From assembly GCF_016862935.1 (NCBI RefSeq), contig NZ_BONX01000007.1, forward strand, positions 310,001 through 374,000: a stretch of DNA of 64,000 nucleotides, given 5' to 3'. A model generated the notes under the pieces. That model saw only the letters and a program-made list of their open reading frames with translations, did not search any database and was not told where the DNA came from. Positions 8,092 through 32,773 of the stretch are shown here, in pieces. Each line of letters opens with the position of its first letter. Within the stretch, counting starts at the first letter, position 1. Both the position numbers and the translations under genes were made by a program. The DNA comes from Plantactinospora mayteni. Its GTDB lineage: Bacteria; Actinomycetota; Actinomycetes; Mycobacteriales; Micromonosporaceae.

Positions 8092-9501
<1,410 letters not shown>

Positions 9502-13572: not shown

Positions 13573-13642
13573 CTGTTTCGTCGGCGCGACCAGCAAGCCC
13601 CCTGGACCAGCAACCCCACCCTAGGGATGGAAGAGGCGCAGC

Positions 13643-15019: not shown

Positions 15020-15993
15020 CCACCGACGTACCCACGTCACCCGGTGCGGTCACGGTCAGCCGTGGCCGTACCGGGCGGGGACGCGGCCGGCGGCGCTACC
15101 AGCCCCGGGAGGTCGCCTGGGCGTACGCCTTCGTCGCCCCGGCCATCGTGCTCTTCGCCGTGATGGGCGTCTACACGCTCTTCTGGGGACTGCAACTCTC
15201 CTTCGTACAGTGGAACGGGCTCACCCCGACCTGGCTCTGGGTCGGCCTGCGCAACTACACCGACCTGCTCTGGGCCAGTCCGGTCTTCTCCCCGCCGGTC
15301 CGCGCGGCGGCGCTGAACACCGTCTGGGTGATGATCGCGGCGCCGCTGCTCACCGTCGTGATCTCCTTTCCGCTGGCCCTGGCGCTCAACCGGGCCCGCC
15401 GGTTCGTCGGGCTGCTCCGCTCGGTCTACTTCGTCCCCTACATCACCACCGGGATCGCGGTCTACCTGGCCTGGCAGTACGTCCTGGAGCCGAACGGCGC
15501 GATCAACACGCTGCTCGGCGCGCTCGGCCTCGGCTCGCTCTCCCAGCCGCAGGGCTGGCTCGGCAATCCCGACACCGCGCTGCCGACGCTCATCGTGATC
15601 ATGGTCTGGTCCGCCGTACCGGTCGCGACGCTGCTCTACCTGACCGGGTTGCAGACGATCGACCCGGCGCTGACCGAGGCTGCCCAGATCGACGGCGCGA
15701 GCTGGTGGCGGGTGAACCTCAGCGTGGTCTGGCCGCTGCTGCGCGGCATCACCGCCGTGATCGTGCTGCTCAACCTGCGTGACGCGCTGCAAGGCTTCCA
15801 GATCTTCCTGATCATGACCGACGGCGGTCCGGGCGACCACACCAACGTGCTCGGCCTACAGACCTACCGGCTCGCGTTCCAGTCCGAACTCGCCCCGACG
15901 CTGGGGCTGGCCAGCGCGCTGGGCTGGATGCTCTTCGTCGCCGCCGTGCTGGTGGCCTTCGTCCACCTGCGGGTCACCCGGGAGCGGCGATGA
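15016..15993 (+). CDS. sugar ABC transporter permease 1 (MalF-like)
   Basis: A 325-residue inner-membrane permease with six predicted helices after a basic N-terminus (GRTGRGRGRRRYQPR). The EAA coupling loop reads EAAQIDGASWWRVNLSVVWP, which docks the ATPase. It overlaps the solute-binding gene by four bases (ATGA) and the next permease by four bases, so the three are translated together. Confidence 0.93.
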   Translation: MTTDVPTSPGAVTVSRGRTGRGRGRRRYQPREVAWAYAFVAPAIVLFAVMGVYTLFWGLQLSFVQWNGLTPTWLWVGLRNYTDLLWASPVFSPPVRAAALNTVWVMIAAPLLTVVISFPLALALNRARRFVGLLRSVYFVPYITTGIAVYLAWQYVLEPNGAINTLLGALGLGSLSQPQGWLGNPDTALPTLIVIMVWSAVPVATLLYLTGLQTIDPALTEAAQIDGASWWRVNLSVVWPLLRGITAVIVLLNLRDALQGFQIFLIMTDGGPGDHTNVLGLQTYRLAFQSELAPTLGLASALGWMLFVAAVLVAFVHLRVTRERR

Positions 15994-16892
15994 CGGTCGG
16001 TGCCGCGCCGGCCGCGATCGAGGCCACCGCCCGGCCCGCCCCGCCGACCCGAGGGGTACGCCGCTGGCGGGCGCAGGCCGTCGTCGCCCGCACGGTCGTC
16101 GGGCTACTGCTTGCCGGGTACGCCATGGTGAGCCTCTACCCGTTCCTCTGGATGGTCTCGGCGGCCTTCAAGACCCCGCAGGAGGTCATCGCGGGCGGTC
16201 ACCTGATCCCGCGAGACCCGACGCTGAGCACCCTGGTCGACACCTGGAACCGGCTGCACTTCTTCGACTACTTCGTGAACAGTCTCCAGGTGACCGTGGC
16301 GACCACCCTCGGCGTCGTGGTGATCTACTCGGCCGCCTCGTACGCCTTCGCCGCGCTGCACTTTCCCGGCCGTACCGCGCTGTACCGGCTCTTCGTCGCG
16401 CTGCTCTTCGTGCCCGGCGTGGTCACCCTGCTCCCGATCGTGCTGCTGGAGAACCGGCTGGCGATCCTCGGTACGCACCTCGGTCTGGTCCTGCCGTTCG
16501 TCAACGGCACCGCCCCGTTCGCCGTACTGCTGCTGACCAACGCGTTCCGGGCGGTACCGACCGAACTGCGCGACTCGGCCCGGGTGGACGGTGCCGGTGA
16601 ACTGCGCATCTTCACCCGGGTCTACCTGCCACTGGCCCGCCCCGCGCTGGTCACGATCGCCCTGCTGACCGCGATCCCGACCTGGAACGAGTATCTGCTG
16701 ACCCGGGTGTCGCTCAACGACCCCGCCACCTACACGCTGCCGATCGCGCTCCAGGCGCTGAAGTCGTCGCAGGTGGTGCAGTACAACTCGCTGATGGCCG
16801 GTGCGCTGATCGTGGTCATCCCGGTCGTGATCCTCTTCCTCGCCGCCCAGCGGTACTTCGTGAACGGCCTCACCGGGGCGATCAAGGGCTGA
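15990..16892 (+). CDS. sugar ABC transporter permease 2 (MalG-like)
   Basis: A 300-residue permease with six membrane segments. The coupling loop reads DSARVDGAGELRIFTRVYLP and the end GLTGAIKG is typical of MalG-type subunits. It forms a heterodimer with the preceding permease. The start overlaps the upstream stop as ATGA. The next gene begins 23 bp downstream and belongs to the same transcript. Confidence 0.93.
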   Translation: MTVGAAPAAIEATARPAPPTRGVRRWRAQAVVARTVVGLLLAGYAMVSLYPFLWMVSAAFKTPQEVIAGGHLIPRDPTLSTLVDTWNRLHFFDYFVNSLQVTVATTLGVVVIYSAASYAFAALHFPGRTALYRLFVALLFVPGVVTLLPIVLLENRLAILGTHLGLVLPFVNGTAPFAVLLLTNAFRAVPTELRDSARVDGAGELRIFTRVYLPLARPALVTIALLTAIPTWNEYLLTRVSLNDPATYTLPIALQALKSSQVVQYNSLMAGALIVVIPVVILFLAAQRYFVNGLTGAIKG

Positions 16893-17920: not shown

Positions 17921-19045
17921 TCAGCCCAGCGCGGCGAGGGTCTCGGCGGCGACCTGGAGATCCTCCCGGGGCTCGACGACCAGCACCGGCACCCGGGCGT
18001 CGGGGGCCGAGACCACCGCGTCGGTCTCCCGGTTGCCGCCCTGCGGCGGCGTGACGCCGAGCAGGCCGAGCCCGGCGCAGACGTCGTGCCGTACCTCGGG
18101 CTGGTCCCAGCCGATCTCGCCGGTGAAGACCAGCGCGTCGAGCCGGTCCAGGCTGGTGGCCGCGGCGGCCAGTTCCCGGCGTACCCGGTGGGCGTAGACG
18201 TCGAGGGCCAGCGCCGCCAGCGGGTCCTCCGGGGCGGCGGCGACCAGGTCACGGGTGTCGTCGGAGCGGCCACCGGAGAGCCCGAGCAGCCCGGACCGGG
18301 AGTTGAGTCCCTCGGACAGCTCGGCCAGGCTGAGCCGGTCGTCTTCGAGCAGCCAGAGCAGCATGCCCGGGTCGACCGCACCGGAGCGCTTCGACATCGG
18401 GATGCCGTCCAGCGGGGTGAAACCCATCGAGGTGTCGACGCTGCGGCCGTCCCGGACCGCGCAGACCGAGGCACCGCCGCCGAGGTGCGCCAGCAGGAGC
18501 TGGAGTCCGCCGGCCGGCCGGCGGAGCAGCTCGGCGGTACGGCGCAGGGCGTACGCGTACGACAGGCCGTGGAAGCCGTACCGGCGTAGCCCCCAGCGTC
18601 GGCGCCACTGTGCGGGTAGCGGGTAGGTGGCGGCGGCGGCCGGCAGGTGGGCGTGGAACGCGGTGTCCGGGCAGAGCACCTGTGGTACCTCGGGAAGCTG
18701 CTCCCGGATCCGGTCCAGCAGGTGCAGGGCGGGCGGCAGGTGCAGCGGGGCCAGCGTGCCCAGCCGGTCGAGTGCGGACCGGAGGGCCTCGTCCACCCGG
18801 GTCGGGGCGCGGACCAGGTCGCCACCGTGCACCAGCCGATGGCCGACGGCGTCGGGCGGCTGGTGGGCGGCGAGGAAGTCGCGTACCGCCCGATCCGCCT
18901 CGGCCGACCCGGGCGGCTCGGTCCGGGCCAGCGCGTCGGTGACCTCGCCCGCCCGGACGTAATCGAGCCGGAGGCTGGCCGAACCCGCGTTGACGGTCAG
19001 TACGACCGGCGGGCCGGGTGCGCGCCCGTTCGTCCCGGTCGCCAT
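17921..19045 (-). CDS. ackA: divergent acetate kinase
   Basis: A 374-residue ASKHA-fold kinase. Recognisable acetate/propionate-kinase blocks are LTVNAGSASLRLDYV, HRLVHGG, YGFHGLSY, LAHLGGGASVCA, TPLDGIPMSKRSG and VFTGEIG. Several depart from the consensus (NAGSASLRL for NSGSSSIK, FTGEIG for FTAGIGEN), so activity or acyl specificity may differ. The ATG at 19045 follows GGAGGAGG; open codons upstream have no ribosome site. No phosphotransacetylase gene adjoins it. It diverges from the secreted arabinoside locus across a 366-bp region rich in operator-like palindromes, so its control may be linked to polysaccharide use. Confidence 0.85.
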   Translation of the reverse strand: MATGTNGRAPGPPVVLTVNAGSASLRLDYVRAGEVTDALARTEPPGSAEADRAVRDFLAAHQPPDAVGHRLVHGGDLVRAPTRVDEALRSALDRLGTLAPLHLPPALHLLDRIREQLPEVPQVLCPDTAFHAHLPAAAATYPLPAQWRRRWGLRRYGFHGLSYAYALRRTAELLRRPAGGLQLLLAHLGGGASVCAVRDGRSVDTSMGFTPLDGIPMSKRSGAVDPGMLLWLLEDDRLSLAELSEGLNSRSGLLGLSGGRSDDTRDLVAAAPEDPLAALALDVYAHRVRRELAAAATSLDRLDALVFTGEIGWDQPEVRHDVCAGLGLLGVTPPQGGNRETDAVVSAPDARVPVLVVEPREDLQVAAETLAALG

Positions 19046-19178
19046 CCGCGCCTCCTCCGCCCGTCCCCGTCGGACCTGTCCCGTCCGCGCGTTCCATCGT
19101 CCGCCGGCTTCCGTCGGCGACGCTGGGGGCCTTACCCGGCCCGTCGGGATCCACGCCCGCCAACCTGCCGCTACGGCC

Positions 19179-19211
19179 GTTCCGAAAGCGTTTCGAGAAC
19201 CTTTTCGGAAC
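19179..19211. promoter_or_regulatory. LacI-type operator cluster (site A)
   Basis: CGAAAGCGTTTCG (19183-19195) is a 5-3-5 palindrome. It sits within a wider inverted repeat, GTTCCGAAA (19179-19187) to TTTCGGAAC (19203-19211). The half-site pattern matches LacI-family operators of actinomycete polysaccharide genes. Confidence 0.6.
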
Positions 19212-19289
19212 AACCATGAAGATCAACCGCTGTTCTTCGCGATGGATCGGGCTCAGCGTTACGTCCTCGTAATATGCGCAACACCTTGC

Positions 19290-19303
19290 CGAAAACCTTT
19301 TCG
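19290..19303. promoter_or_regulatory. LacI-type operator (site B)
   Basis: CGAAAACCTTTTCG has perfect 6-bp arms around CC. It shares AACCTTTTCG with site A (19198-19207), so the region holds at least two related binding sites upstream of the metalloprotease gene. Confidence 0.6.
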
Positions 19304-19411: not shown

Positions 19412-20704
19412 ATGAGGCGATGGTGGCCGGCCCTCGCGCCGTTGCTGGCGCTGGGCCTGGTGTTCACCGGGATGGGAGTGGCGAAGGCCGCCCCCGGGGA
19501 CAACCTGGCCTGGACCGCGACCGCGAGCGCGTCCTACACCTCACCCTGGGAGAGCGTCGCGGCGATCCGCGACGGCATCGACCCGACCACCTCGAACGAC
19601 ACCCAGAACCCGCGCTGGGGCACCTGGCCCAACACGGGCGAGCAGTGGGTGCTGCTCACCTGGACCTCGCCGCAGACCATCCGGGCTGCCGAGGTCTACT
19701 TCTTCGACGACAACGGCGGAGTACGCCTGCCGGCCTCCTGGCGGGTGCAGAGCTGGAACGGCAGCGGCTACGTCGACGTCGCCGGAGCCAGCGGCTACCC
19801 GATCGCGGCCAACCGCTACAACCTGGTCACCTTCAACGCGGTCAGCACCACCCAGTTGCGGGTGCTGATGCAGAGCGGGACGGCCTCGGTCGGCCTGCTG
19901 GAGGTCAAGGCGCACGCCCAGCCGCCCGGCCCCACCCCGCCGACCACGCCACCGTCCACCGGCTGGAACCCGCCGTCCAACCTGGTCACCGCGCTGGACG
20001 AGGTCTGGCGGCACCAGGAGCAGACCTACAACAACGGCAACCTGTACGCCTTCCGCAACTACGGCTGGGATCAGCTCTTCGCCAACCGGGGCTACATCAA
20101 CTACTGCGTCCGCTGGGACTCCTCGGCCAACGTCACCGCCGCCCAGCGCGACCAGATCCACGCCTCGCTGGCCCGGCAGTACAAGAAGTGGATGGACGTG
20201 ATGGTCGGGCACAACGCGTTCCCGTACACCGACGTGCCGATCCGGGTCGTCGGCTGGGCGGTACGCAACCGGTCCCAGCTCCAGTGGTCGGACACCTCGG
20301 TCGACATCTACGTGGGCGACATCCGGGAGAACGCGCCACAGTGTGCGGCGCCGTGCGGCCGGTTCTTCAACCAGAACGGCCAGTACCCGAACTGTCCCGG
20401 CGGGGCATCCCGGCACTACGACCAGTCGCTCTGGCTGACCGACGGCTTCGGCGGCGGTGCCGGCGGTGACTGGGGTCAACGGATGGGCCGCGAGTACTTC
20501 ATGAACAGCATCAACGCGGAGAACATGACCATCCTGCTGCACGAGATCGGCCATACCTACGGGTTGGACGACTTCTACGACTGGACGCCGACCGGCGTGA
20601 GCGGCTTCATCATGAAGGCCGGCAGCGCCAGCTCGATCACCGAGTTCGACCGCTGGATGTTCCGGGACTGGTGGCGGCACCTGAAGAACCGCTACGGCTA
20701 CTGA
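19412..20704 (+). CDS. secreted zinc metalloprotease with N-terminal carbohydrate-binding-like module
   Basis: A 430-residue secreted protein. A Sec signal (1-26) is followed by a discoidin/CBM-like module (about 29-168), a Pro/Thr linker (PPGPTPPTTPPSTGW), and a catalytic domain (about 188-430). The catalytic motif HEIGHTYGLDD gives zinc ligands His377 and His381, catalytic Glu378 and probably Asp387. HExxHxxGxxD with an Asp third ligand is the snapalysin-type pattern, and GFIMKAGS (Met401) looks like a Met-turn. No prodomain is evident. It is the first gene of the GH127-GH43 locus, with a near-perfect ribosome site AAGGAGGAG. A protease carrying the same module as the glycosidases suggests a glycoprotein target (inference). 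Confidence 0.8.
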   Translation: MRRWWPALAPLLALGLVFTGMGVAKAAPGDNLAWTATASASYTSPWESVAAIRDGIDPTTSNDTQNPRWGTWPNTGEQWVLLTWTSPQTIRAAEVYFFDDNGGVRLPASWRVQSWNGSGYVDVAGASGYPIAANRYNLVTFNAVSTTQLRVLMQSGTASVGLLEVKAHAQPPGPTPPTTPPSTGWNPPSNLVTALDEVWRHQEQTYNNGNLYAFRNYGWDQLFANRGYINYCVRWDSSANVTAAQRDQIHASLARQYKKWMDVMVGHNAFPYTDVPIRVVGWAVRNRSQLQWSDTSVDIYVGDIRENAPQCAAPCGRFFNQNGQYPNCPGGASRHYDQSLWLTDGFGGGAGGDWGQRMGREYFMNSINAENMTILLHEIGHTYGLDDFYDWTPTGVSGFIMKAGSASSITEFDRWMFRDWWRHLKNRYGY

Positions 20705-20780
20705 CCTGGTCGCTCGAACCCACATCCGGGGTCGCCCGGCCACGTCGCCGGGCGACCCCCGCCCCCGGAGGTGACCACCC

Positions 20781-23261
20781 ATGCCCCAACCTGCCCTGTC
20801 CCGCCGATCCCTGTTGCAGACCGGCGCCGCCGTCGCGGTCGGCACCGCCGTCGCCGGCACCCTGCCCGCCGCGCCGGCCGCCGCGGCCCGGACCGACATC
20901 GGGGTCTCCGCGTATGCCTTTCCGCTGACCGCGGTCACCCTGCTGGCCGGGCCGTTCCAGGCGAACGCCGGCCGTACCCAGTCCTATCTGAACTTCATCG
21001 ACGCCGACCGGCTGCTGCACACCTTCCGGCTCAACTACGGGCTCTCCTCCTCGGCGACCGCCTGCGGAGGCTGGGAGTCGCCGACCACCGAACTGCGCGG
21101 CCACTCCACCGGGCACGTGCTGACCGCGCTGGCCCAGGCGTACGCGAACACCGGGCAGGCGGCGTTCAAGACCAAGGGCGACTATCTGGTGGCGCAGTTG
21201 GCGATCTGCCAGAACCGGGCCAGCACGGCCGGCTACAACACCGGCTACCTGTCGGCGTACCCGGAGAGCTTCATCGACCGGGTGGAGGCCCGGCAGCAGG
21301 TCTGGGCGCCGTACTACACGCTGCACAAGATCATGGCCGGGCTGCTCGACATGCACCTGCTGGCCGGCAACGCCCAGGCGCTCGACGTGCTGACCCGGAT
21401 GGCGGCCTGGGTGAAGTTCCGCAACGACCGGCTGAGCCAGACCCAGCGGCAGAACATGCTGGACACCGAGTTCGGCGGGATGAACGAGGTATTGACCAAC
21501 CTCTACCAGCTCACCGAGAACCCGGACCACCTGACCACGGCCCGCTACTTCGACCACGCGGAGATCTTCGACCCGCTGGCCGCGAACACCGACGCGCTGA
21601 ACAACTACCACGCGAACACCCAGATCCCGAAGATCCTCGGCGCGATCCGCGAATACCACGCCACCGGCACCACGCGATATCGCGACATCGCAGTCAACTT
21701 CTGGGACATCGTGGTCAACCGGCACAGCTACGCGATCGGCGGCAACTCCAACGGGGAGTACTTCAAGGCGCCGAACCGGATCGCCAGCGAGCTGTCGGAC
21801 AGCACCTGCGAGTGCTGCAACACCTACAACATGCTGAAGCTGACCCGGCAGCTCTTCTTCACCAACCCGAGTCGGCTGGACTATCTCGACTACTACGAGC
21901 GGGCGCTCTGGAACCACCTGATCGGTGCGCAGAACCCCAGCTCGTCGCATGGCTTCCACTGCTACTACGTGCCGCTGCGGGCCGGCGGGACCAAGACGTA
22001 CAGCAACGACTACAGCAACTTCACCTGCTGCCACGGCACCGGGATGGAGACCCACACCAAGCTCGTCGACAGCATCTACTTCCACAACGGCGACATCCTC
22101 TACGTCAACCTCTTCGCCGCCTCCCGGCTGGTCTGGCCGGGGCGGGGGATCACGGTGCAGCAGGACACCACGTTCCCGGAGTCGTCGACCAGCCGGCTCA
22201 CCGTCACCGGCTCCGGCGCGATCGACCTGCGGATCCGGATCCCCGGCTGGGCCACCGGCGCCGAGGTACGGCTGAACGGCACGGTGCAGTCCGGGGTCAC
22301 ATCCGGCAGCTTCGCCCGGATCAACCGGACCTGGGCCTCCGGCGACGTGGTCGAGATCAGCCTGCCGATGGCGCTGACCCGGGAGGCCACCCCGGACAAC
22401 AGCACGGTGCAGGCGGTCAAGCACGGGCCGATCGTGCTCGCCGGGGCGTACGGCAGCACCAACCTCTCGGCGCTGCCGACGCTGAACCCGGCCACCATCA
22501 CGCCGACCTCGACCCCGATGCAGTACACCGCGACGGCCAGCACCGGCACCGTGACCCTGCTGCCGTTCTACAAGATGCACGGGCAGCGCTACACGGTCTA
22601 CTGGACGGTGACCGGGGCGCCGCCGGCCCCGTTCGTCGCGCACTACCGGTTCGACGAGACCGCCGGCACCAGCGCCGCCGACGCCACCGGCAACGGCAAG
22701 ACCGGCACCCTGACCGGCGGCGCCGGCTGGACCAGCGGCCGGACCGGCAACGCGGTCAACCTCAACGGCACCAGCGCGCACGTCAGCCTGCCGGCCGGGC
22801 TGCTCGCCGGCGCCACCGCGTTCACCGTGGCGACCTGGGTACGCCGGACCGCCGCCACGGCCTGGGCGCGGGTCTTCGACTTCGGCACCGGGACCGGGGC
22901 GTACCTCTTCCTCACCCCGCAGAGCAGCGCCGGGACGATCCGGTTCGCCATCACCAGCGGGGGAGCCGGGTCGGAACAGCAGATCAACGGGCCGGCGGCG
23001 ATCCCGGTCAACACCTGGACGCACGTCGCGGTCACCCAGACCGGCAACACCGGGGTGCTCTACGTGAACGGCGTCGAGGTGGCCCGGAACACCGCCATGA
23101 CCACCCGGCCCTCCGCGCTCGGCTCGACCACCAACAACTGGGTGGGCCGGTCGCAGTACTCCGGCGACCCCTACCTGACCGGCGCGGTGGACGGCTTCCG
23201 GGTCTACGCCCGGGCGCTGAGCGCGGCCGAGATCGCAGACCTGAACTCGACCGGTCTGTGA
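20781..23261 (+). CDS. Tat-secreted GH127 beta-L-arabinofuranosidase with LamG domain
   Basis: An 826-residue enzyme. A Tat signal (SRRSLLQTGAAVAVG) ends near residue 36. The (alpha/alpha)6 barrel (about 45-430) holds the GH127 zinc-thiolate site: Glu344 and Cys346 in STCECCNTYN, and Cys416-Cys417 in FTCCHGTGME. In this family a Cys acts as the nucleophile on beta-L-arabinofuranosides. Beta-sandwich domains follow to about 615, then a LamG-like concanavalin fold (about 617-826). The known substrate class is beta-linked L-arabinofuranose on hydroxyproline-rich plant glycoproteins. GGAGG lies nine bases before the ATG. The gap to the upstream gene is 76 bp with no terminator, so co-transcription is likely. 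Confidence 0.92.
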   Translation: MPQPALSRRSLLQTGAAVAVGTAVAGTLPAAPAAAARTDIGVSAYAFPLTAVTLLAGPFQANAGRTQSYLNFIDADRLLHTFRLNYGLSSSATACGGWESPTTELRGHSTGHVLTALAQAYANTGQAAFKTKGDYLVAQLAICQNRASTAGYNTGYLSAYPESFIDRVEARQQVWAPYYTLHKIMAGLLDMHLLAGNAQALDVLTRMAAWVKFRNDRLSQTQRQNMLDTEFGGMNEVLTNLYQLTENPDHLTTARYFDHAEIFDPLAANTDALNNYHANTQIPKILGAIREYHATGTTRYRDIAVNFWDIVVNRHSYAIGGNSNGEYFKAPNRIASELSDSTCECCNTYNMLKLTRQLFFTNPSRLDYLDYYERALWNHLIGAQNPSSSHGFHCYYVPLRAGGTKTYSNDYSNFTCCHGTGMETHTKLVDSIYFHNGDILYVNLFAASRLVWPGRGITVQQDTTFPESSTSRLTVTGSGAIDLRIRIPGWATGAEVRLNGTVQSGVTSGSFARINRTWASGDVVEISLPMALTREATPDNSTVQAVKHGPIVLAGAYGSTNLSALPTLNPATITPTSTPMQYTATASTGTVTLLPFYKMHGQRYTVYWTVTGAPPAPFVAHYRFDETAGTSAADATGNGKTGTLTGGAGWTSGRTGNAVNLNGTSAHVSLPAGLLAGATAFTVATWVRRTAATAWARVFDFGTGTGAYLFLTPQSSAGTIRFAITSGGAGSEQQINGPAAIPVNTWTHVAVTQTGNTGVLYVNGVEVARNTAMTTRPSALGSTTNNWVGRSQYSGDPYLTGAVDGFRVYARALSAAEIADLNSTGL

Positions 23262-23318
23262 CCACTCTTCGTTCCGCCTGACCACCGCTCCCACACCGAA
23301 CAGGAGAGCAGACAGTGG

Positions 23319-23404
23319 ACCTTTCTCAACCTGAACCGGGCGGCGTGTGCGCCCCGACTTCCGCCTGCGGCCACCACAGACCGCAAGGGGAGGTTGAGAA
23401 AGGT
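23319..23404 (+). promoter_or_regulatory. 14-bp inverted repeat that can hide the GH43 ribosome site
   Basis: ACCTTTCTCAACCT (23319-23332) is perfectly complementary to AGGTTGAGAAAGGT (23391-23404), with a 58-nt loop. The right arm contains AAAGG, the likely Shine-Dalgarno four bases before the GTG at 23408. In mRNA the stem would block it. Confidence 0.6.
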
Positions 23405-23407
23405 TCA

Positions 23408-24859
23408 GTGCGCAGCAGGCGATGGTTCCGGGTCGCGGCCGGCGGGGTCGCCGGACTGCTGGCCGGTGTCGGCCTGGCGATCCCGGCCGGACCGGCCTCG
23501 GCGGCGAACCCGATCATCACCAGCATCTACACCGCCGACCCGGCGCCGCTGGTGGTCGGCAACACCATGTACATCTACGCCGGGCGGGACGAGGCGCCGA
23601 CCGGGGACAACAACTTCCGGATGCGGGAGTGGCACGTCCTCTCCTCGACCGACGCCAACACCTGGACGCACCATGGCGCCCGGGCCTCGATCGCCACCTT
23701 CCCATGGGCCGGTGCGGACGCCTGGGCCAGCGAGGTCGAGCCGCGCAACGGCAAGTACTACTGGTACACCTCGGTCAACGGCCGGGGCGCCGGCTGGATG
23801 GACATCGGGGTCGCGGTCGGGGACAGCCCGCTCGGCCCGTTCACCGACGCCAAGGGCGGGCCGCTGATCAGCGACAGCACCCCGAACTCCTCCGGGCTGA
23901 ACATCGACCCGACCGTCTTCGTCGACGACGACGGGCAGGCGTACATCTACTGGGGCGGTTACTGGGGTGCCCGGGCGGCCCGGCTGAAGTCGAACATGAT
24001 CGAGCTGGACGGCCCGGTGGTCACCCCGAGCGGGCTGAGCAACTTCTGGGAGGCCCCGTGGATGTTCAAGCGCAACGGCCTCTACTACATGATGTACGCC
24101 GCCAACGACACCAACGGCTGCGTCACCTCGTCCAGCTACGCCTGCCAGCGGTATGCCACCGCCACCAACCCGATGGGGCCGTGGACGCACCGGGGCATCG
24201 TGCTCGGCCAGGTCTCCTCGACCACCAACCACGCCGGAGTGGTGGAGCTGAACGGGCAGTGGTACATGGTCTACCACACCGCCAACGCCCCCGGTGGCGG
24301 TAACTTCCGCCGCTCGGTGGCGGTCGACCGGCTCTACTTCAACGCCGACGGCACGATGCAGCGGGTGGTGCAGACCAGCACCGGCCCCGGCCCTGGTCCC
24401 GGCCCCGGTCCGGGCGGTCCACCGGCCGGTACCAACCTGGCCACCTCGGCGACCGCCTCCACCTCGTACGTCTCGGCCTGGGAGAGCATCGCGGCGCTGA
24501 ACAACGGCGGCGTACCGGCGAACTCGGCCGACAAGAGCAACCTGGCGTACGGCAACTGGCCCGAGCAGGGCACCCAGTGGGTCGAGTACACCTGGCCGTC
24601 GGCCCGGACGCTGAACCGGATCGCGACCTACTGGTTCGACGACGACCAGGGCATCGACCTGCCCGCCTCCTGCCAGGTGCAGTACTGGACCGGCAGCGCG
24701 TACGCCAACGTGCCCGGCCAGTCGAGCTGCGGGGTGGCCGGCAACACCTACAACGTCACCACCTTCAACTCCGTGAACACCACCCGGCTGCGGCTGAACA
24801 TCACCTCCCGGTCCGGCTTCTCCACCGGCCTGCTGGAGTGGCTCGCCTACCAGCCCTGA
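23408..24859 (+). CDS. secreted GH43 arabinan/arabinofuranoside hydrolase with C-terminal module
   Basis: A 483-residue secreted protein. Signal peptide 1-33 starts MRSRRWFRVAAGG and ends ASAA. The five-bladed propeller (about 34-345) has the GH43 triad: Asp44 in TADPAP, Asp167 in NIDPTVF and Glu215 in FWEAPWMF. A Gly-Pro linker (GPGPGPGPGG) joins a module (about 355-483) homologous to those in the neighbouring protease and hydrolase. The family includes alpha-L-arabinofuranosidases, arabinanases and beta-xylosidases. A GTG at 23315 with AGGAG is an alternative start that would add 31 residues before the signal, which is less plausible. The 14-bp inverted repeat upstream may gate translation. 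Confidence 0.88.
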   Translation: MRSRRWFRVAAGGVAGLLAGVGLAIPAGPASAANPIITSIYTADPAPLVVGNTMYIYAGRDEAPTGDNNFRMREWHVLSSTDANTWTHHGARASIATFPWAGADAWASEVEPRNGKYYWYTSVNGRGAGWMDIGVAVGDSPLGPFTDAKGGPLISDSTPNSSGLNIDPTVFVDDDGQAYIYWGGYWGARAARLKSNMIELDGPVVTPSGLSNFWEAPWMFKRNGLYYMMYAANDTNGCVTSSSYACQRYATATNPMGPWTHRGIVLGQVSSTTNHAGVVELNGQWYMVYHTANAPGGGNFRRSVAVDRLYFNADGTMQRVVQTSTGPGPGPGPGPGGPPAGTNLATSATASTSYVSAWESIAALNNGGVPANSADKSNLAYGNWPEQGTQWVEYTWPSARTLNRIATYWFDDDQGIDLPASCQVQYWTGSAYANVPGQSSCGVAGNTYNVTTFNSVNTTRLRLNITSRSGFSTGLLEWLAYQP

Positions 24860-24947
24860 CGACCCCGGTCTGTCGCGGGGCAGACCCCCTCCGCCCCGCG
24901 ACGGGCCGGTCCATCCCCCACCACCGAACCCCCTTGGAGGTGACCCG

Positions 24948-27900
24948 ATGCGTTTCGCCCCGGGTAGGAAGCGGAGAGCCTGGGCCGCCGGGCTCGCGGT
25001 CGTGCTGGCCACCGGTGCCCTGGTGGCGCCCGGTACGCCGGCCACGGCCGCGCAGACCATCGGCTTTCCCACGTTCTCCGGACCGGCTGTCCCGGCCCCG
25101 CCGGTCGGCTACAGCACCGGCAACACGATGCAGGCGATCTACGACGCCGAGAGCGGCGGCACCGACTTCTGGATGGACCGGCTGCTCGCCCGGCCGGGCA
25201 ACGACCCGGCCGGTACCTGGCTGATGACCCGGGGCCGGGGCATGTTCATGTACACCCACAACCCGTCGGTGATCGGCTTCGGCGGCAACGCCGCCTACTG
25301 GGACAACATCAGCAGCCAGGCCGCGTACACGGTCGCGGTCACCCCGGGCACCTTCACCGAGCAGGTCTCCAGCCGGTGGCAGTCGCCGAGCCACTGGCGG
25401 GGCGTCTACACCAGCGGTTCCGTCCGGGTCGAGGTGTCGAAGTTCATCACCGCGCAGAACGTCGCGGTGACCAACCTGAACGTGGTGAACACCGGCTCCG
25501 GCTCGGCCACCGTGCAACTGCGGGCCACCTCGCCGTACGCCGCCTCGGGCAGCGGCAGCGAGCTGACCGGTACCCGGGCGGTGAAGAACGGGCTGACCAC
25601 GCTCTATCCCCGGCTGTCGGGAGACGGGTTCACGGTCAGTTCCGGCGGGCTGGACCGGTCGGTGACGCTGGCCGCCGGGCAGTCGCTCAGCACGAAGGTG
25701 CAGCTCGGGTTCGTCGCCAACGAGATTCCGGAGTCGCTGACCGAGTACAACGCCTATCGCGGTTACACCCCGGCGACGGCGTTCGCCACGCACGTGCGGG
25801 CGTACAACCGGTGGTGGGCGGAGAACATCCCGTACATCGACGTGCCGGACGCGGCGATCAAGAAGAACGTCTACTACCGCTGGTGGCTGATGCGCTTCAA
25901 CTATCTCGACGTGGACATCCCCGGCCAGGACTTCCAGTTCCCGACCTCGGTCGAGGGGGCGCTCGGCTACAACAACGCGATCGTACTGACCCAGCCGATG
26001 CACATCGACGACCTGAAGTACCTGCGCAACCCGATCTACTCGTACGGGCCGTGGACCTCGATCGGGCAGGTCTCCCGGAACGGCCGGTTCATGGACAACC
26101 CCGGTGACCCGGAGAACTGGTCGAACTCCTACACCCAGTACGTCTCCGAGGCGGCCTGGCGCAGCTACCAGATCCACGGTGGGCAGCCGGCGATCGCGGC
26201 GAACCTGGCCCGCTATGCCGAGCAGGACGTCAAGGGGCAGCTCGCCACCTACGACACCAACAACAACGGCGTGATCGAGTACGACTGGGGCGCGATGACC
26301 GGCAACGACGCCGACGCGGTGTCGTTCCACTGGCGTGCCGGCAACCTGGACCGGGCCGAGGGGGCGTACGTCTGGAGCAACGCGATGGCGGCGGTGCAGG
26401 CGTACACGCTGCTCGGCAACACGGCCAAGGCGAACGAGATGCAGACGATCGCCGACCGGATCCGGAACGGCATCATCAACACGCTGTGGAATCCGTCCCG
26501 GCAACTGCTGGAGCACAAGCACGTCTCGACGAACACGCACGTACCGTGGAAGGAGATCAACAACTACTACCCGTACTCGGTCGGGCTGATGCCGAACACC
26601 GACCAGTACCGGCAGGCGTTGCGGCTCTACGACGACCCGGCGGAGTACCCGATCTTCCCGTTCTTCACCGCCAACCAGCGCGACAAGGCCGCGGCGGCCG
26701 CCGCCGGCCAGCCGGGCAGCAACAACTTCTCCACCATCAACTCGACCGTGCAGTTCCGGCTCTACTCCTCGGTGTTGCGCAACTATCCCAACCAGTGGAT
26801 GACGGCGGAGAACTACAAGCAGCTCCTCTACTGGAACGCCTGGGCGCAGTACATCGGCGGCAACACCCAGTGGCCGGACGCGAACGAGTTCTGGGCGGAC
26901 TGGAGCGGGTCGAGCCGGACGATCAACTACCGGTCCTGGATCCACCACAACATCCTGGGCAGCAGCAACTGGACGGTGGTCGAGGACGTCGCCGGGCTCC
27001 GGCCGCGCACCGACAACACCATCGAGCTGTCCCCGATCAACATCAACTGGTCGCACTTCGCCGTGAACAACCTGCGGTACCGCAACATGGACCTCAGCGT
27101 GGTCTGGGACGACCCGGCCGACGGGGTGACCAGGTATTCCGGCGTCCCGCAGGGCTACTCGGTCTATCTCAACGGCACCCGGGCGTTCACCGTGGACCGG
27201 CTGACCCGGGTGCTCTACAACCCGGCGACCGGCGCGGTCACCCTGCCGGCCGGCGGCACGACCAACTTCAGCACCGCCGTCTCCGGGCTGCAACTGCCGC
27301 AGCAGGTGGTGCAGAACAGCACCCGGATGGTGGACCTCTTCGCCAAGGCCGGCGCCGACCTCACCTCGACCACGCCGAACCTGGCGTCGGGGTCGACGGC
27401 GACCGCCTCGTACACCGCGTCGGGCACCTCCACCGGGGCGGCGATCGACGGCTTCCCGATCAACGAACCGATCTGGGGCGCCTACGGCTCACCGAACGCC
27501 ACCGACTCCTACGAGCTGAACTTCGGCCAGGCCCGGGCGGTCGACGAGGTACGGCTGTGGTTCCGCAACGACCGGGCGACGAACCGGTACCGGCCACCGG
27601 CCTCGTACAACGTGCAGTACTGGAACGGCAGCGCCTGGGTGAACGCGGCCTCCCAGGCGAAGTCCCCGGGCACGCCGCAGTCCAACTACAACCGGGTCAC
27701 CTTCACTGCGGTCAGCACCCAGCGGCTGCGGGTGCAGTTCACCCACGCCTCCGGCTCGGCGAAGACCGGGCTGACCGAGATCAAGGTCTACAACCGGGGC
27801 GGCACCAACCCGGATCCCGATCCCGATCCCGACCCCGAGCCGGGTGGCAACGTGGCGGGGGCGGCGACGCCGTCCGCGTCGTACACCTCCGCCTGGGAGA

Positions 27901-28271
27901 GCGTGGCGGCGATCAACGACGGGATCGACCCGCCGAGTTCCAACGACACCGTCAACCCGCGCTGGGGCACCTGGCCGAACACCGGCGCGCAGTGGGCCGA
28001 GCTGACCTGGCCGACCAGCCGCACGCTGAACGCCGCCGAGGTCTACTTCTTCGACGACAACGGCGGGGTACGCGTACCGGCCTCCTGGAAGCTCCAGTAC
28101 TGGACCGGCAGCGCGTACGCCGACGTGCCCGGGGCCAGCGGCTATCCGATCGCGGTCAACCAGTACAACCGGGCGACCTTCCCCAACGTCGGCACCACCC
28201 GGTTGCGGGTGGCGCTGACCAGCGGCCAGGGCTCGGTGGGGCTGTTGGAGGTGAAGGCGTTCAGCCCCTGA
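24948..28271 (+). CDS. large secreted (alpha/alpha)6-type glycoside hydrolase with two binding modules
   Basis: A 1107-residue secreted protein. Signal peptide 1-35 is followed by a beta-sandwich domain (about 40-285) and an (alpha/alpha)6-type region (about 290-700) with acidic motifs (VIEYDWGAMTGNDAD, DANEFWADWSG). A beta domain (about 700-800), an F5/8C-like module (about 805-950), a PDPDPDPDPEP linker and a final module (about 970-1107) complete it. The order resembles clan GH-G / MGH1-like hydrolases, but I cannot assign a CAZy family or catalytic pair. The last module is very close to that of the metalloprotease at 19412. GGAGG precedes the ATG by eight bases and a strong hairpin follows the stop. 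Confidence 0.8.
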   Translation: MRFAPGRKRRAWAAGLAVVLATGALVAPGTPATAAQTIGFPTFSGPAVPAPPVGYSTGNTMQAIYDAESGGTDFWMDRLLARPGNDPAGTWLMTRGRGMFMYTHNPSVIGFGGNAAYWDNISSQAAYTVAVTPGTFTEQVSSRWQSPSHWRGVYTSGSVRVEVSKFITAQNVAVTNLNVVNTGSGSATVQLRATSPYAASGSGSELTGTRAVKNGLTTLYPRLSGDGFTVSSGGLDRSVTLAAGQSLSTKVQLGFVANEIPESLTEYNAYRGYTPATAFATHVRAYNRWWAENIPYIDVPDAAIKKNVYYRWWLMRFNYLDVDIPGQDFQFPTSVEGALGYNNAIVLTQPMHIDDLKYLRNPIYSYGPWTSIGQVSRNGRFMDNPGDPENWSNSYTQYVSEAAWRSYQIHGGQPAIAANLARYAEQDVKGQLATYDTNNNGVIEYDWGAMTGNDADAVSFHWRAGNLDRAEGAYVWSNAMAAVQAYTLLGNTAKANEMQTIADRIRNGIINTLWNPSRQLLEHKHVSTNTHVPWKEINNYYPYSVGLMPNTDQYRQALRLYDDPAEYPIFPFFTANQRDKAAAAAAGQPGSNNFSTINSTVQFRLYSSVLRNYPNQWMTAENYKQLLYWNAWAQYIGGNTQWPDANEFWADWSGSSRTINYRSWIHHNILGSSNWTVVEDVAGLRPRTDNTIELSPININWSHFAVNNLRYRNMDLSVVWDDPADGVTRYSGVPQGYSVYLNGTRAFTVDRLTRVLYNPATGAVTLPAGGTTNFSTAVSGLQLPQQVVQNSTRMVDLFAKAGADLTSTTPNLASGSTATASYTASGTSTGAAIDGFPINEPIWGAYGSPNATDSYELNFGQARAVDEVRLWFRNDRATNRYRPPASYNVQYWNGSAWVNAASQAKSPGTPQSNYNRVTFTAVSTQRLRVQFTHASGSAKTGLTEIKVYNRGGTNPDPDPDPDPEPGGNVAGAATPSASYTSAWESVAAINDGIDPPSSNDTVNPRWGTWPNTGAQWAELTWPTSRTLNAAEVYFFDDNGGVRVPASWKLQYWTGSAYADVPGASGYPIAVNQYNRATFPNVGTTRLRVALTSGQGSVGLLEVKAFSP

Positions 28272-28346: not shown

Positions 28347-29271
28347 GCGGGGCGCTCCCCACCAACACTGGAAAGTTGCAGTACATCAAGGACCGGGACG
28401 GGCTGGCGATGTTCAACCGGATCTGGAACGAGGCCCGCAACACCGAACACCCGCTGGAGGTGTACCGGCGGATCACCGGGATCAGCCAGGCCGAACTGAA
28501 CCGCCGGGTGGGCGAGTACGCCCAGCACAACGTCACCTGGGACTACTCGAACCGGGCCGACTTCATGCCCTTCGTCAACCGGCTGTACCCGTTCGTCACC
28601 GCGTACAACGGGGTGGCGGTGGAGGCGGTCAACGCTGCCGCCGGGCACTTCCGGATCTCCGACGCGGTGACCCCGTCCGACTACGGGTACAACAAGATCA
28701 AGCTGGTGCCGGCCTCGGACGGCGCGCTGATCCGGCTCCGGCTGCGCGGACACGTCAACTCGGCCGCCCAGTCCGGCTGGACCTTCGGCTTCGTCGCGGT
28801 CCGCAACGGCGCCCCCGGTACGGCCCGCTGCTCACCAGCACCGACGGCCAACTCACCTTCCAGACCCAGCCGGGGGAGCGCAAGGTCTACCTGGTGGTGA
28901 CCGGCACCCCGGGCGTGGTGCACAAGTACGCCTTCCTGGACGGGTGTCCCAAGAACTACCGCTACCCGTACCAGTTCCGGCTGACCGGCGCGACGCCGTC
29001 CGGCTTCGAGCCCGGCTACGTCCGGCCGGCGGCGCCGGGCGGCGGACGCTGGCACAGCAACGGCGGTGGCTGGGTCGACAGCCGGGCCACCGTCGCGGCC
29101 GGCGCCTACGTCGGCCCCCGCGCCGCCGTCTACGGCCGCTCCACCGTCAACGGCAACGCCCGGATCGAGGACCTGGCCTGGGTCAACGAGGGCGCCACGG
29201 TCGGCGGCAACGCGATCGTCCGGCAGAGCGCCCTGGTCCAGACCGGGGTCAACCTGGCGATCACCGGCTGA
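28347..29271 (+). pseudogene. 5'-truncated, frameshifted AvrXca/Svx-like (DUF6055) gene
   Basis: Two overlapping frames encode the C-terminal half of a DUF6055 protein. The first runs from LQYIKDRDGLAMFNRIWNEA, the part that normally follows the HExxH region. The second carries YGPLLTSTDGQLTFQ through KYAFLDGCPKNYRYPYQF to a Gly/Asn-rich end (VGPRAAVYGRSTVNGNA). The join is in a run of five C at 28811-28815; a sixth C would restore NGAPRYGPLL. The N-terminal half is missing and the remnant begins just after the terminator of the preceding gene. Its own terminator at 29295 is intact. The family is known from plant-associated bacteria. Confidence 0.75.
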
Positions 29272-29399: not shown

Positions 29400-29500
29400 A
29401 CCTTAACGCTTCCCCACGGTTGAGAGCCGGGGAACTTCTGGCTCGGACCGCACGAGAGCACCGTCGCGGAAGGAGGTGATCGCATGTCTCACGTCGTCGG
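29400..29500 (-). ncRNA. candidate omega (guide) RNA at the tnpB 3' end
   Basis: In TnpB elements the guide RNA overlaps the 3' end of tnpB and runs through the right end into flanking DNA. Here the minus-strand transcript passes through GAAGTTCCCCGGCTC and CGTGGGGAAGCG to about 29400. The guide would then be read from host sequence below 29400. The exact ends are not determinable by eye. Confidence 0.35.
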
Positions 29501-30608
29501 CACCAGCACGGCCGCGTTCTGCCGTGGCGAGGATCGTCCTCGCGGCGTTCCGGTCCCGACCCGCGGTGTACCCGCAGGTGTCGCACCGGAAGACTCTGAC
29601 ACCCAGCCCGAGACGGTGCTTGGCTCTCGTACCGCACTGCGAGCAGGTCATCGTGGTGTAGGCGGGCGGTACCAACACCACCTTCCGGCCCGCCCGCATG
29701 CCACGATCGATCAACTCCCGCTTCGCCGCACCGATCGCCGCATCAGCGGCCTTGCGCGCCATCCGGGATCTGGTCAGGAATGTGGGTTGGAAGTCCTCGA
29801 CGGCGATCGTCGCGTGGTTGTCGATGATCTTCTTCGCCCAGACGCGGGCGTCGTGGGTGTTCTGCCGGGCCGCCTTCTTCGCGACCTTCGCCGCCTGGCG
29901 TTTGGCCCGCAGGTAGCCGTTCGACGGCGTGACGTTCTTCGCCCTGCGACGCCGGGCCATCCGGCGCTGCGCCCTGGCCAGTTCGGCGGCGCACCGTTTC
30001 CGGTGGCCGAGGTACGGCAGGTCGTAGGTCGCATCCGTCGTTGTCGCGGTCGTCGTGACACCCCAGTCGACACCGATCGCACCCTCAACGTCGGGCGCGG
30101 GCGGGGTCTCGCGACGGACGACGAAGGAGGCGTACCAGTGCCCGATCGTGTCCTGGTAGACGCGGACGCTGGTTGGGGCGGAGGACAGCTCGCGGGACCA
30201 GACAACGGGAATGGCAACACCGCCGGGCAGCCGCAGCCGGCGGTCGCGGATCGAGAACCCGCGCACCGTGTATTCGAGGCTGGGCAGAGTATCCTTCCGT
30301 CGCTTCGGTCTCGGCCGGCCGCGTCCCTTCACCTTGAAGGAGTGCTGGAGAGCGAGGGCGTAGGTACGCAGCGTCTGCTGTTGGGCGACCTGGGACCCGT
30401 CACGGAGCCACGACGAGCGGGCCCGCGCCTCGGTCAGCAGCTTCGACAGCTTGCCGAAGGTGGGTTTACGGCCGGTCTTGTACTGGTGGACGGCCTCGTT
30501 CCACAGCCAACGGCACCGGCCCCACTCGGCCAACAGCGCGGCCCGCGCGGTCGCGCCGGGACGCAACCGGTAGGTGTACCGCACCGTCTCGTCCACACCT
30601 GGAAGCAT
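29403..30608 (-). CDS. tnpB: TnpB RNA-guided nuclease
   Basis: A 401-residue TnpB. The N-terminal wedge domain begins VRYTYRLRPGATAR. The RuvC residues are all present: Asp181 (GVDWGV), Glu271 (AVEDFQP) and Asp352 (GRDRNAA). The zinc ribbon has Cys322, Cys325, Cys342 and Cys345 (CSQCGT, CDTCGY). The length is usual, with no frameshift. It therefore looks catalytically intact. The protein cuts DNA at sites matching its omega RNA next to a short adjacent motif, and helps retain the element. The ATG at 30608 is used; GTG codons a few residues later are alternatives and no clear ribosome site distinguishes them. Confidence 0.92.
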   Translation of the reverse strand: MLPGVDETVRYTYRLRPGATARAALLAEWGRCRWLWNEAVHQYKTGRKPTFGKLSKLLTEARARSSWLRDGSQVAQQQTLRTYALALQHSFKVKGRGRPRPKRRKDTLPSLEYTVRGFSIRDRRLRLPGGVAIPVVWSRELSSAPTSVRVYQDTIGHWYASFVVRRETPPAPDVEGAIGVDWGVTTTATTTDATYDLPYLGHRKRCAAELARAQRRMARRRRAKNVTPSNGYLRAKRQAAKVAKKAARQNTHDARVWAKKIIDNHATIAVEDFQPTFLTRSRMARKAADAAIGAAKRELIDRGMRAGRKVVLVPPAYTTMTCSQCGTRAKHRLGLGVRVFRCDTCGYTAGRDRNAARTILATAERGRAGADDVRHAITSFRDGALVRSEPEVPRLSTVGKR

Positions 30609-31177: not shown

Positions 31178-32773
31178 TCAGCGCTCGTTCGGGTCGATCC
31201 GGGCGCGTACCTCGGCGTGCTCGGCGAGCAGGTGCAGCAGGTTGGAGCCGTCGATCAGCTCCAGCGGCTTGCCGGAGGCGAACTCGAACGAGTCCGGGCC
31301 GTAGCCGCTGGTCGTCACGAGGATGCCCTTGGTCGCCCCCTCGCCCAGCACCGTGCCGAAGAGGTCCCGCACCGCCGAGACGTCCATGGTGCCCCGATCC
31401 CGGCGGGCCTGGATCACCACCTTGCCGCCGAAGATCGGGCGGGGGTCGAACGCCACGCAGTCGATGCCGCCGTCCGGCGCCGTCCGGGTGGTCCGGGTCT
31501 CCAGGCCGAGCTTGCCGAAGAGGTTCCGGATCAGGTCCTCGAACTCGGTCCGGCTCAACTTGTGCAGGTTCGGGCGCTGGTCCAGGTCGGCCAGTACGTC
31601 CACCTCGTCGACGAAGCGCTTGTCGACCACGTCGAACTCCAGCACCGGGTGTACCGCGACCAGCTCCTCGGGCCGGGGCGACTGGGTGGCCCGGAGGTGC
31701 CGCAGGCAGGCCGCCGGATCGACCTTGGCCAGGTTGATCGCGACGAAGGGGTCCCGGCTGGTCCGCAGGGTCACCAGGCAGGGCCGGACCGCCTGCCCTG
31801 TACCCGGGTGCGTGGTCTCGACGATGCCGTTGAAGACGATCGTCTCCACCAGCCGGGTACGGTCGGCCTCGAAGAGCTCGTGCACGGTACGCAGCGCCAC
31901 CTGGGTGATCAGGTCGGCGTACCGCTCCCGGATCTCGTCCGCCGAGCGGGGCACTGTCTGCACCTCGTCGCCGGCCTTGACGTAGCGGTATTCCCGGACC
32001 TTCGGCACCACCGCGACGGTCGGCAGCAGGTATTCCACAACGATCAGCCGGGAGTCCGGGACGTAGGCGAGCCGGTAGCGCTGCGGAAAGTCCTCCGGAT
32101 AGACCGAGTTGCCGAGCACCAGGCCGAAGTATTTCACCACGGCGTTCGGTTCGGCGGCGGCCAGTGCGGTGCCGAACCTGTCGATCTCGGTGTTGTGGCT
32201 GGCGACCTCGGCGTCGAGCTGCTGGCAGTGCTGGTCGTACTTGCGCCGTGCCTGGGCGAGCCGCTGCTGCCGGGCCGTCTCGCCGGCCGCGTGCTTGGCC
32301 TTGGCCTTCTCGAACGCCTGCTCCGCCTCGGTCAGCAACTGCTGGTAGCGGGCCTCGCCGCCGAACATCTTGCCGAGCGCGTTCGGTTCGGGCGGCGCGA
32401 ACCGTCGCCAGTCCGGCGCCCGCAGCGGCGTGCCCAGCTCACCCGGCTTGAACTCCGGGTAACTGGCCGCCTTCTTCAGCCGCTCCAGGTCGATGTGGTC
32501 GTCGATGGCCAGGGTGGTCTGGAGCAGGTTGTCCAGCTCGTCCAACTGGGACTGGAGGCTGGCGTTGGCGGACCTGACCCGGGCGGTCCGGGCCTCGACG
32601 TAGAGCCGCCGGCGCTCCCGCTCGTCCGCCTCCGCCGCCCGCTCGGCGGCCCGCCGGGCATGCTCGGCCTCCCAGAGCATCTGCTGGTGCTGTTGGTACG
32701 GGGTGGTCGATGCCCGTTGCCGTGCGTGCACCTGTTGCGCGTGCGCCCGCTGCATCTGCCCCATGATGCCCAT
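31178..32773 (-). CDS. Mrr-like restriction-endonuclease-fold protein with coiled coil
   Basis: A 531-residue protein. Residues 20-85 and 135-210 are Ala/Glu/Arg/Gln-rich and strongly predicted as coiled coil (MLWEAEHARRAAERAAEA). The C-terminal Mrr_cat domain (406-520) carries LSRTEFEDLI, GGID (Asp438), VVIQARRDR and VDxSAVRDLFGTV-type motifs. The usual Q-x-K catalytic triplet reads Gln455-Ala-Arg457, so the catalytic Lys is replaced by Arg. Mrr-type enzymes cut modified foreign DNA; this one could be inactive, altered, or a DNA-binding sensor. No methylase gene adjoins it. The ATG at 32773 follows GGGGAC. Confidence 0.8.
   Translation of the reverse strand: MGIMGQMQRAHAQQVHARQRASTTPYQQHQQMLWEAEHARRAAERAAEADERERRRLYVEARTARVRSANASLQSQLDELDNLLQTTLAIDDHIDLERLKKAASYPEFKPGELGTPLRAPDWRRFAPPEPNALGKMFGGEARYQQLLTEAEQAFEKAKAKHAAGETARQQRLAQARRKYDQHCQQLDAEVASHNTEIDRFGTALAAAEPNAVVKYFGLVLGNSVYPEDFPQRYRLAYVPDSRLIVVEYLLPTVAVVPKVREYRYVKAGDEVQTVPRSADEIRERYADLITQVALRTVHELFEADRTRLVETIVFNGIVETTHPGTGQAVRPCLVTLRTSRDPFVAINLAKVDPAACLRHLRATQSPRPEELVAVHPVLEFDVVDKRFVDEVDVLADLDQRPNLHKLSRTEFEDLIRNLFGKLGLETRTTRTAPDGGIDCVAFDPRPIFGGKVVIQARRDRGTMDVSAVRDLFGTVLGEGATKGILVTTSGYGPDSFEFASGKPLELIDGSNLLHLLAEHAEVRARIDPNER

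Follow-up and report, generated by a model that had tools for sequence, protein, structure and literature searches.

Why should a gene for a secreted metalloprotease stand at the head of a run of genes for secreted arabinosidases? This question is raised by the window analysed here, a 64,000-nucleotide stretch of Plantactinospora mayteni (contig NZ_BONX01000007.1, positions 310,001 to 374,000), in which four consecutive + strand open reading frames (ORFs), A to D, span 19412-28271 with intergenic gaps of 76, 53, and 88 bp. These genes probably form the secreted arm of a BauR-like system under LacI control, through which plant hydroxyproline-rich glycoproteins, for example extensins, are used. 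An earlier note on this DNA had described four consecutive secreted proteins, among them a HEIGHTYGLDD metalloprotease and a GH43 enzyme, and this is upheld; a Sec- or Tat-like signal sequence was seen by eye at the N-terminus of each protein. The source genome is 9.84 Mb and the nearest named relative here is Plantactinospora endophytica, in which the protease catalytic domain is 96 % identical. The unit reaches past the four genes, with two palindromes upstream and a decayed DUF6055 gene downstream. A scan for sigma-70 promoters and terminators returned nothing exceeding chance.

19183-19195, no strand: operator-like palindrome CGAAAGCGTTTCG, the upper of a pair; lone match in the window, 0.01 expected in shuffles.
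19290-19303, no strand: operator-like palindrome CGAAAACCTTTTCG, about 110 bp before the gene A ATG; lone match in the window, 0.00 expected.
19412-20704, + strand: gene A, secreted metzincin-like metalloprotease of 430 amino acids (aa), from the ORF list, metal-site alignment, and fold search; F5/8C-like module at about aa 28-170, catalytic domain with HEIGHTYGLDD at about aa 182-430.
20781-23261, + strand: gene B, secreted beta-L-arabinofuranosidase, nearest GH146, with a C-terminal LamG domain, 826 aa.
23315-24859, + strand: gene C, secreted GH43 protein with a C-terminal F5/8C-like module, 514 aa; start codon uncertain.
24948-28271, + strand: gene D, secreted GH121 beta-L-arabinobiosidase (HypBA2 type) with two F5/8C-like modules, 1107 aa.

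The protein encoded by gene D, previously left as a large unassigned hydrolase, can be placed by sequence in GH121. It matches the NCBIfam HypBA2 model NF041578 (E = 2e-264) and PDB chain 6m5a_A (E = 2.5e-196, in two stretches covering aa 85-805). Its motifs TSVEGALGYNN, GNDADAVSF, and NEFW bring Glu336, Asp454, and Glu647 into register with Glu383, Asp515, and Glu713 of HypBA2, three acids that are essential by mutagenesis (PMC7263609). The full-length cut-off of NF041578 is missed (880.9 against 3200 bits for a 1709-position model, the best stretch being 19-1033), therefore the protein is assigned as a GH121 member and not as a named HypBA2 equivalog. By family it is a beta-L-arabinobiosidase, with release of the disaccharide beta-Ara2 predicted. 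No C-terminal membrane anchor was seen by eye in this protein.

Gene B matches PF07944 (beta-L-arabinofuranosidase; 2.4e-116) and LamG (1e-35). Its best scores in the PDB are to 5opj (333 bits) and 8k7y (202 bits), which we take to be BT0349 and Bll3HypBA1, both of GH146, against 70 bits for the GH127 structure 4qjy; HypBA1 (3wkw) is absent among its eight PDB hits at 0.001. Residues E344, C346, C416, and C417 align with the Glu-Cys-Cys-Cys zinc-site motif of 5opj. By PDB hit scores gene B is closer to GH146 than to GH127, the family named in the earlier note, and the argument for hydroxyproline-rich glycoproteins that had been built on GH127 passes to GH121, the member specific for them. Gene C carries PF04616 (GH43; 3.3e-44), its best solved relative being 3qed (3.8e-80); membership of GH43 is as far as its sequence goes, and its likeness to HypAA is one of position. 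The F5/8C-like module of protein A is 71 % identical to module 2 of D, 49 % to that of C, and 37 % to module 1 of D, which agrees with the earlier view that the protease shares a binding module with two glycosidases; the curated Pfam cut-off is exceeded by the modules of D, whereas those of A and C score lower. Homogenisation of these modules within the locus was considered and rejected, the protease module being 83 % identical to its Asanoa counterpart and 71 % to module 2 of D.

Metzincins are marked by the motif HExxHxxGxx(H/D) and a downstream Met. The corresponding residues of protein A (H196, E197, H200, G203, D206, and M220) are invariant in 51 of 51 aligned homologues, and a HEXXHXXGXXD metal site has been described (PMC3890501). 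With ADAMTS, MMP, venom, and related bacterial metzincins the protease shares this site and the Met; metzincins are also the best rows of a fold search with its AlphaFold model (predicted local distance difference test, pLDDT, 84.8), but the match is modest. Unlike them, it has no significant sequence match to any solved chain (a single-query PDB search gave one chance-level hit, E 1.3, and a profile search none) and lies above no Pfam or NCBIfam cut-off, including the curated Pfam cut-offs of the M6, M7, M10, M12, and M66 families. Reprolysin_5 is its sole sub-threshold Pfam peptidase match (13.4 against 27 bits) and gives the best E-value among the 51 family members (9.2e-5); the lone NCBIfam peptidase match is an M6 domain model (18.5 bits, cut-off 110.8). 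Other metalloprotease clans, outside the fold-search list, may also accommodate the protein.

A scan of 84,980 species genomes returned 324 coding stretches of this protease family, 80 of which are used in the counts of named loci below. These 80 are from Micromonosporaceae, Streptosporangiaceae, Pseudonocardiaceae, Kribbella, one short contig filed as Streptomyces, and Herpetosiphon. In two phylum samples, too thin to reveal the family beyond Micromonosporaceae, the protease was found in 1 of 396 and 1 of 346 genomes, the one being the window's own. The copy in Herpetosiphon (Chloroflexota; L129:9308-10753) has an N-terminal module that is CBM2-like by eye and no GH121 within 10 kb. Six full-length proteases, picked after reading their N-termini, were scanned for added modules: CBM2 is present in three (L046, which is near GH121, L048, and L054), a ricin-type module in L049, an F5/8C-like module below cut-off in L042 (near GH121), and no added domain in L044.

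Is the association with arabinosidases conserved? At a 400-bit cut, 30 of the 80 loci have GH121 no more than 10 kb away from the protease, and these come from Micromonosporaceae, Pseudonocardiaceae, and Streptosporangiaceae; a looser count of 31 had included L122, where Virgisporangium (L122:9237-9434, and likewise L053) has a 66-residue GH121 fragment upstream of the protease. At least one pathway glycosidase (GH121, GH146, GH43, or intracellular GH127) is present in 38 of 80 loci, and in 37 of the 65 that are at least 17 kb long. The neighbourhood search that the earlier note had proposed for the protease and its GH127 shows that gene B has a relative in 19 of the 80 loci and gene D in 30, so the protease is conserved next to these glycosidases in related genomes. 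The commonest arrangement among the 30 linked loci (11) is intracellular GH127, binding protein, two permeases, protease, GH146, GH43, and GH121. The order of the window (protease, GH146, GH43, GH121) occurs in five and protease, GH43, GH121 in four; GH43 and GH121 precede the protease in five, three are divergent, and two are otherwise arranged. In 21 of the 30 the protease gene comes first, ahead of the glycosidase genes. A tree of the proteases calls for 12 changes of the linked state among 67 labelled rows, 14 of 81 rows with flanks too short to label being left out; linked copies belong to three families. The intracellular GH127 of locus L126 is a HypBA1 homologue (1.1e-72 against 3wkw), and such a GH127 is encoded elsewhere in the P. 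mayteni genome and inside the operon of several relatives.

Co-occurrence extends beyond physical linkage. In a sample of 300 Micromonosporaceae genomes, 28 of 120 protease copies are within 20 kb of the GH121 group on the same contig, this group being defined by a cut at about 60 % identity among the matches listed. At the level of the genome, the group is present in 88 of 112 genomes with the protease and 12 of 188 without it. Stratified by genus, with labels assigned by hand and the largest genus by exclusion, the association has an odds ratio of 33 (p = 1.5e-14).

A palindrome of LacI type was spotted by eye before gene A and in relatives, and later tested genome-wide. Its strict form, CGAAAASSTTTTCG, is CGAAAA(C/G)(C/G)TTTTCG. 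The strict form has four sites in the P. mayteni genome, all ahead of pathway or metallopeptidase-like genes, and two looser patterns (three or four free bases) have seven sites each, with none for the reversed patterns. Ten of these 14 looser sites form close pairs at five places:

Pair 1: in the window, before gene A.
Pair 2 (C4): before an L-arabinose isomerase gene that heads an operon with an importer, intracellular GH127, a second GH121, and GH43.
Pair 3 (C40): between a LacI gene and an intracellular GH127 gene.
Pair 4 (L208): before a secreted HELGHALGLPD protein; the opposite side faces a flavin adenine dinucleotide (FAD)-linked oxidase gene.
Pair 5 (C18), less perfect: before an ORF without a Pfam match, near GH43-CBM2 and DUF6055-CBM2 genes.

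The four single sites are at C18:30970, C4:118441, C9:11971, and C23:436278, two of which adjoin other LacI-type ORFs by eye. The window unit, the C4 operon (AraA, importer, GH127, GH121, and GH43), and the C40 LacI/GH127 genes each stand behind a palindrome pair. GH121, an importer, intracellular GH127, and LacI are thus found in one genome behind one control sequence, as in a HypBA-type system. The LacI protein adjoins the palindrome and is predicted to bind it; the regulon is probably BauR-like. The second GH121 locus (L166/L210, about 141-155 kb of C4) encodes, behind the pair at its head, the isomerase, a binding protein, two permeases, intracellular GH127, a GH121 that shares about 40 % identity with that of gene D, and GH43. 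At C18 (L209) the DUF6055-CBM2 and GH43-CBM2 genes are divergent, with the imperfect pair just past the GH43 gene.

Across the genus, 16 strict sites are present; they fall in four of the seven genomes, precisely those that carry the protease and GH121. The nearest matched gene is the protease at four sites, AraA or importer at four, LacI at four (once with GH127), the secreted HELGHALGLPD protein at two, a HEYGH protein followed by GH121 at one, and GH43 at one. Across the 300 family genomes, the strict palindrome is present in 112 of 140 with the protease or GH121 and in 4 of 160 with neither (G117, G177, G261, and G288). The reversed-pattern control gave, by eye, one hit each in six of the 300 family genomes and none in the genus.

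Sites also accompany the two partners where they are apart. In 13 genomes with unlinked loci, being those of 20 with unlinked GH121 loci that have a protease locus to compare, a site is present at nine of the 13 protease genes and at every one of the 13 GH121 loci; 16 of the 20 unlinked GH121 loci carry one. Among the 74 of 80 protease loci covered by an upstream and downstream comparison, stand-alone genes have a site upstream in 10 of 36 cases and downstream in none of 36, linked genes in 13 of 30 and none of 30, and unlabelled genes in three of eight and one of eight. A site occurs somewhere in 27 of 30 linked loci, and operons led by GH127 usually have it before the GH127 gene. The protease is therefore often in the arabinoside regulon even when unlinked, and it is this regulatory evidence that carries the claim. 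The suggestion in the earlier note that sugar removal and backbone cleavage are coupled gains from the linkage, the co-occurrence within genera, and the shared palindrome; the cleavage itself and the enzyme specificities are predictions from sequence.

Some further observations concern these sites. Genome G259 exceeds any other genome listed, with 12 strict palindromes and five match rows for the protease, of which three are full copies and two are pieces on one contig; it perhaps has an expanded regulon. At L219:1517-1657 a short L-arabinose isomerase remnant lies between palindrome and importer genes. In the window, the divergent acetate kinase ORF (17921-19213, - strand) overlaps the upper palindrome with its first codons; its true start is uncertain and, if further in, acetate kinase could share the gene A control region. 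An ATP-binding cassette (ABC) sugar importer with a ROK regulator is encoded at 10793-16892. The importer genes (13643-16892) were considered as a beta-Ara2 importer: compared with the Asanoa operon, which has a beta-Ara2-type importer, the permeases show about 30 % identity and the binding protein has no match at 1e-3. From 9 to 31 kb no palindromes were found other than the two that precede gene A, and this candidate was therefore rejected.

The proposed sequence of events, drawn from what has been published on the specificities of HypAA (GH43) and of GH121 and GH146 relatives (PMC6085000; PMC7263609; PMC10850190), begins outside the cell, where the GH43 enzyme (C) would take the terminal alpha-1,3-arabinose off Ara4-Hyp (Hyp, hydroxyproline), GH121 (D) would free beta-Ara2 from Ara3-Hyp, and GH146 (B) would take the last arabinofuranose (Araf) off hydroxyproline. 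The metzincin-like protease (A) would then cleave the bared hydroxyproline backbone, with F5/8C-like modules anchoring A, C, and D to one wall ligand. Uptake and use of the sugar would fall to the ABC importer, intracellular GH127, and L-arabinose isomerase, which are encoded elsewhere in the genome behind the same palindrome. This suggests that the protein and the sugar of the glycoproteins are used together.

The glycosidase set and its LacI regulator have precedents. In the actinobacterium Bifidobacterium longum a HypAA/HypBA1/HypBA2 cluster acts on beta-arabinooligosaccharides (PMC7263609), and the BauR1 regulon of bifidobacteria contains bauR, hypBA1, hypBA2, and bauABC (PMC5928203). Likewise, GH121, GH43, intracellular GH127, an ABC importer, and a LacI-family regulator are found in one locus or regulon here. 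The extracellular enzymes of B. longum are reported as membrane-anchored, unlike the product of gene D as read by eye, and the table entry for BauR1 lists no peptidase (PMC5928203). The present system has GH146 and metalloproteases in addition, and its palindrome is also found before L-arabinose isomerase. Homologues from the actinomycetes Streptosporangium, Actinosynnema, and Micromonospora have already been listed (PMC6085000). Bll3HypBA1, from the B. longum cluster for arabinogalactan protein (AGP), resembles gene B in joining a GH146 catalytic domain to LamG; it differs in acting on Araf-beta1,3-Araf of AGP and arabinan, and the account of it mentions no GH121 or protease in the sections compared (PMC10850190).

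Another close system is that of Xanthomonas euvesicatoria, where xehypBA1/BA2/AA specify freely secreted GH121 and GH43 and an extracellular HypBA1 of GH146 (PMC6085000; PMC10850190). Members of GH146 from Xanthomonas and B. longum cleave backbone-borne Araf-beta-Hyp, and others act on AGP or arabinan (PMC10850190). A gene for a predicted prolyl oligopeptidase lies beside xehypAA and is reported to be a pseudogene; the authors, who expected that deglycosylation would be followed by the action of proteases, named this one broken gene (PMC6085000). The peptidase of the present unit is instead conserved and of metzincin-like type, and its gene shares the palindrome of the glycosidase genes. What cleaves the extensin backbone after arabinoside removal is left open in the relevant parts of the papers compared. 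Literature searches, judged by their hit lists, brought up no extensin-directed actinobacterial metalloprotease paired with these glycosidases. The statement in the earlier note that no described actinobacterial locus pairs these activities is partly right, the glycosidase cluster being known from B. longum. What is new, so far as these searches show, is the protease, its conserved place beside the glycosidases, and its position behind the palindrome; as judged from Pfam, NCBIfam, PDB, and literature searches, the metzincin-like family itself also appears to be new.

Several observations weigh against an extensin-specific system. Protease copies bearing CBM2 point to a wider role at the plant wall; 26 of 36 stand-alone protease genes have no upstream site, as do four GH121 loci (L181-L184); three otherwise complete operons have no protease; and 20 protease genomes have no GH121, the strict palindrome being missing from 14 of those 20. 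A general wall protease or a broad arabinose regulon is possible, two explanations that overlap each other and in part the one preferred here, so that the likelihoods given are not meant to add up to a whole. A protease that serves many polysaccharidases, and is present because these bacteria degrade biomass, would account for CBM2 or ricin modules on some stand-alone copies, for the 92 of 120 copies without demonstrated linkage to GH121, and for the GH10 xylanase, a plant-biomass control, in all 112 protease genomes. GH10 is, however, also present in 149 of the 188 protease-free genomes, of which 12 have the GH121 group, and neither the palindrome upstream of some stand-alone copies (10 of 36, against 0 of 36 downstream) nor the arabinoside, LacI, or metallopeptidase-like identity of the nearest matched gene at all 16 strict genus sites would be expected from it; this role is unlikely. 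Somewhat less so, and still unlikely, is that the palindrome is an L-arabinose response element, which would place the protease in a broad response to arabinan, arabinoxylan, and AGP. An L-arabinose isomerase does head an operon with the palindrome, and GH146 includes arabinan and AGP enzymes (PMC10850190); yet none of the 16 strict genus sites has an arabinanase or xylanase as its nearest matched gene (genes further along were partly checked), GH121 and intracellular GH127 recur, and the two tested GH121 enzymes act on Ara3-Hyp (PMC6085000).

A role of the protease in maturing the glycosidases secreted with it, instead of in feeding on plant protein, is improbable. The close spacing, the upstream position of the protease in 21 of 30 linked loci, and the common F5/8C-like module would suit such a function, but stand-alone copies own wall-binding modules, two further and different metallopeptidase-like proteins stand behind the same palindrome, and operons of Asanoa and Micromonospora keep the glycosidases without the protease. 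Chance adjacency of unrelated secreted hydrolases, to which the many copies not shown to be linked to GH121 might point, is hardly credible given linkage in three families and several orders, the genus-stratified association, and the sharing of the palindrome.

Use of hydroxyproline-rich glycoproteins by a LacI-controlled system is accordingly retained as the probable function. A wider proposal, on which the evidence is nearly balanced but falls a little short, is that of a dedicated actinobacterial extensin-digesting regulon, in which the metzincin-like family and at least two other secreted metallopeptidase-like proteins (the HELGHALGLPD type, and the HEYGH type, in which the same F5/8C module is often present) are part of the LacI regulon for hydroxyproline arabinosides. 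If so, one signal would trigger the stripping and the proteolysis of the same glycoprotein, and these would be the first proteases known from bacteria to be specialised for hydroxyproline-rich backbones freed of their sugar. The locus and regulon name concrete candidate proteases for the extensin backbone, the operator can be used to find more, and the coupling of deglycosylation to proteolysis becomes testable in culturable soil and endophytic actinomycetes.

The HELGHALGLPD protein of pair 4 (L208:7965-8681) is secreted, 239 aa long, and preceded by a perfect palindrome pair, with relatives in L223 (92 % identical) and L127 (82 %). Its metzincin matches are all sub-threshold, and an AlphaFold model built from the three sequences was unusable (mean pLDDT 33). 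Past the adjacent FAD-linked oxidase gene lies a subtilase. Secreted HEYGH proteins are encoded in L116, L124, L133, L144, L147, L152, L155, and L227, several with the same F5/8C-like module; the motif was read in L133 and L144, and no Pfam peptidase family was found. Their genes neighbour that of the protease in Streptosporangiaceae and in a single Paractinoplanes locus; in L227 the neighbour is GH121, behind a palindrome.

Downstream of gene D is one further feature of the unit:

28376-29259, + strand: remnant of a DUF6055 gene (HExxH protein) that lacks its front part, in two blocks in different frames.

The remnant is 92 % identical to residues 253-547 of a 601-aa ORF of P. endophytica (L079), and its family, PF19527, was assigned via the homologue in L140. 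The part holding the HExxH motif of the homologue has been lost. A longer copy is at the same place in P. endophytica (L079 and L038, evidently one contig) and in genome G032 (L040). Adjoining the remnant is an IS605-type TnpB gene (29403-30608, - strand), and a protein with an Mrr-type restriction endonuclease domain is encoded at 31178-32773 (- strand). Other plant-wall enzymes of the window are a GH10 xylanase (8092-9480, - strand) and a lytic polysaccharide monooxygenase (PF03067) with CBM2 (44230-45447, - strand).

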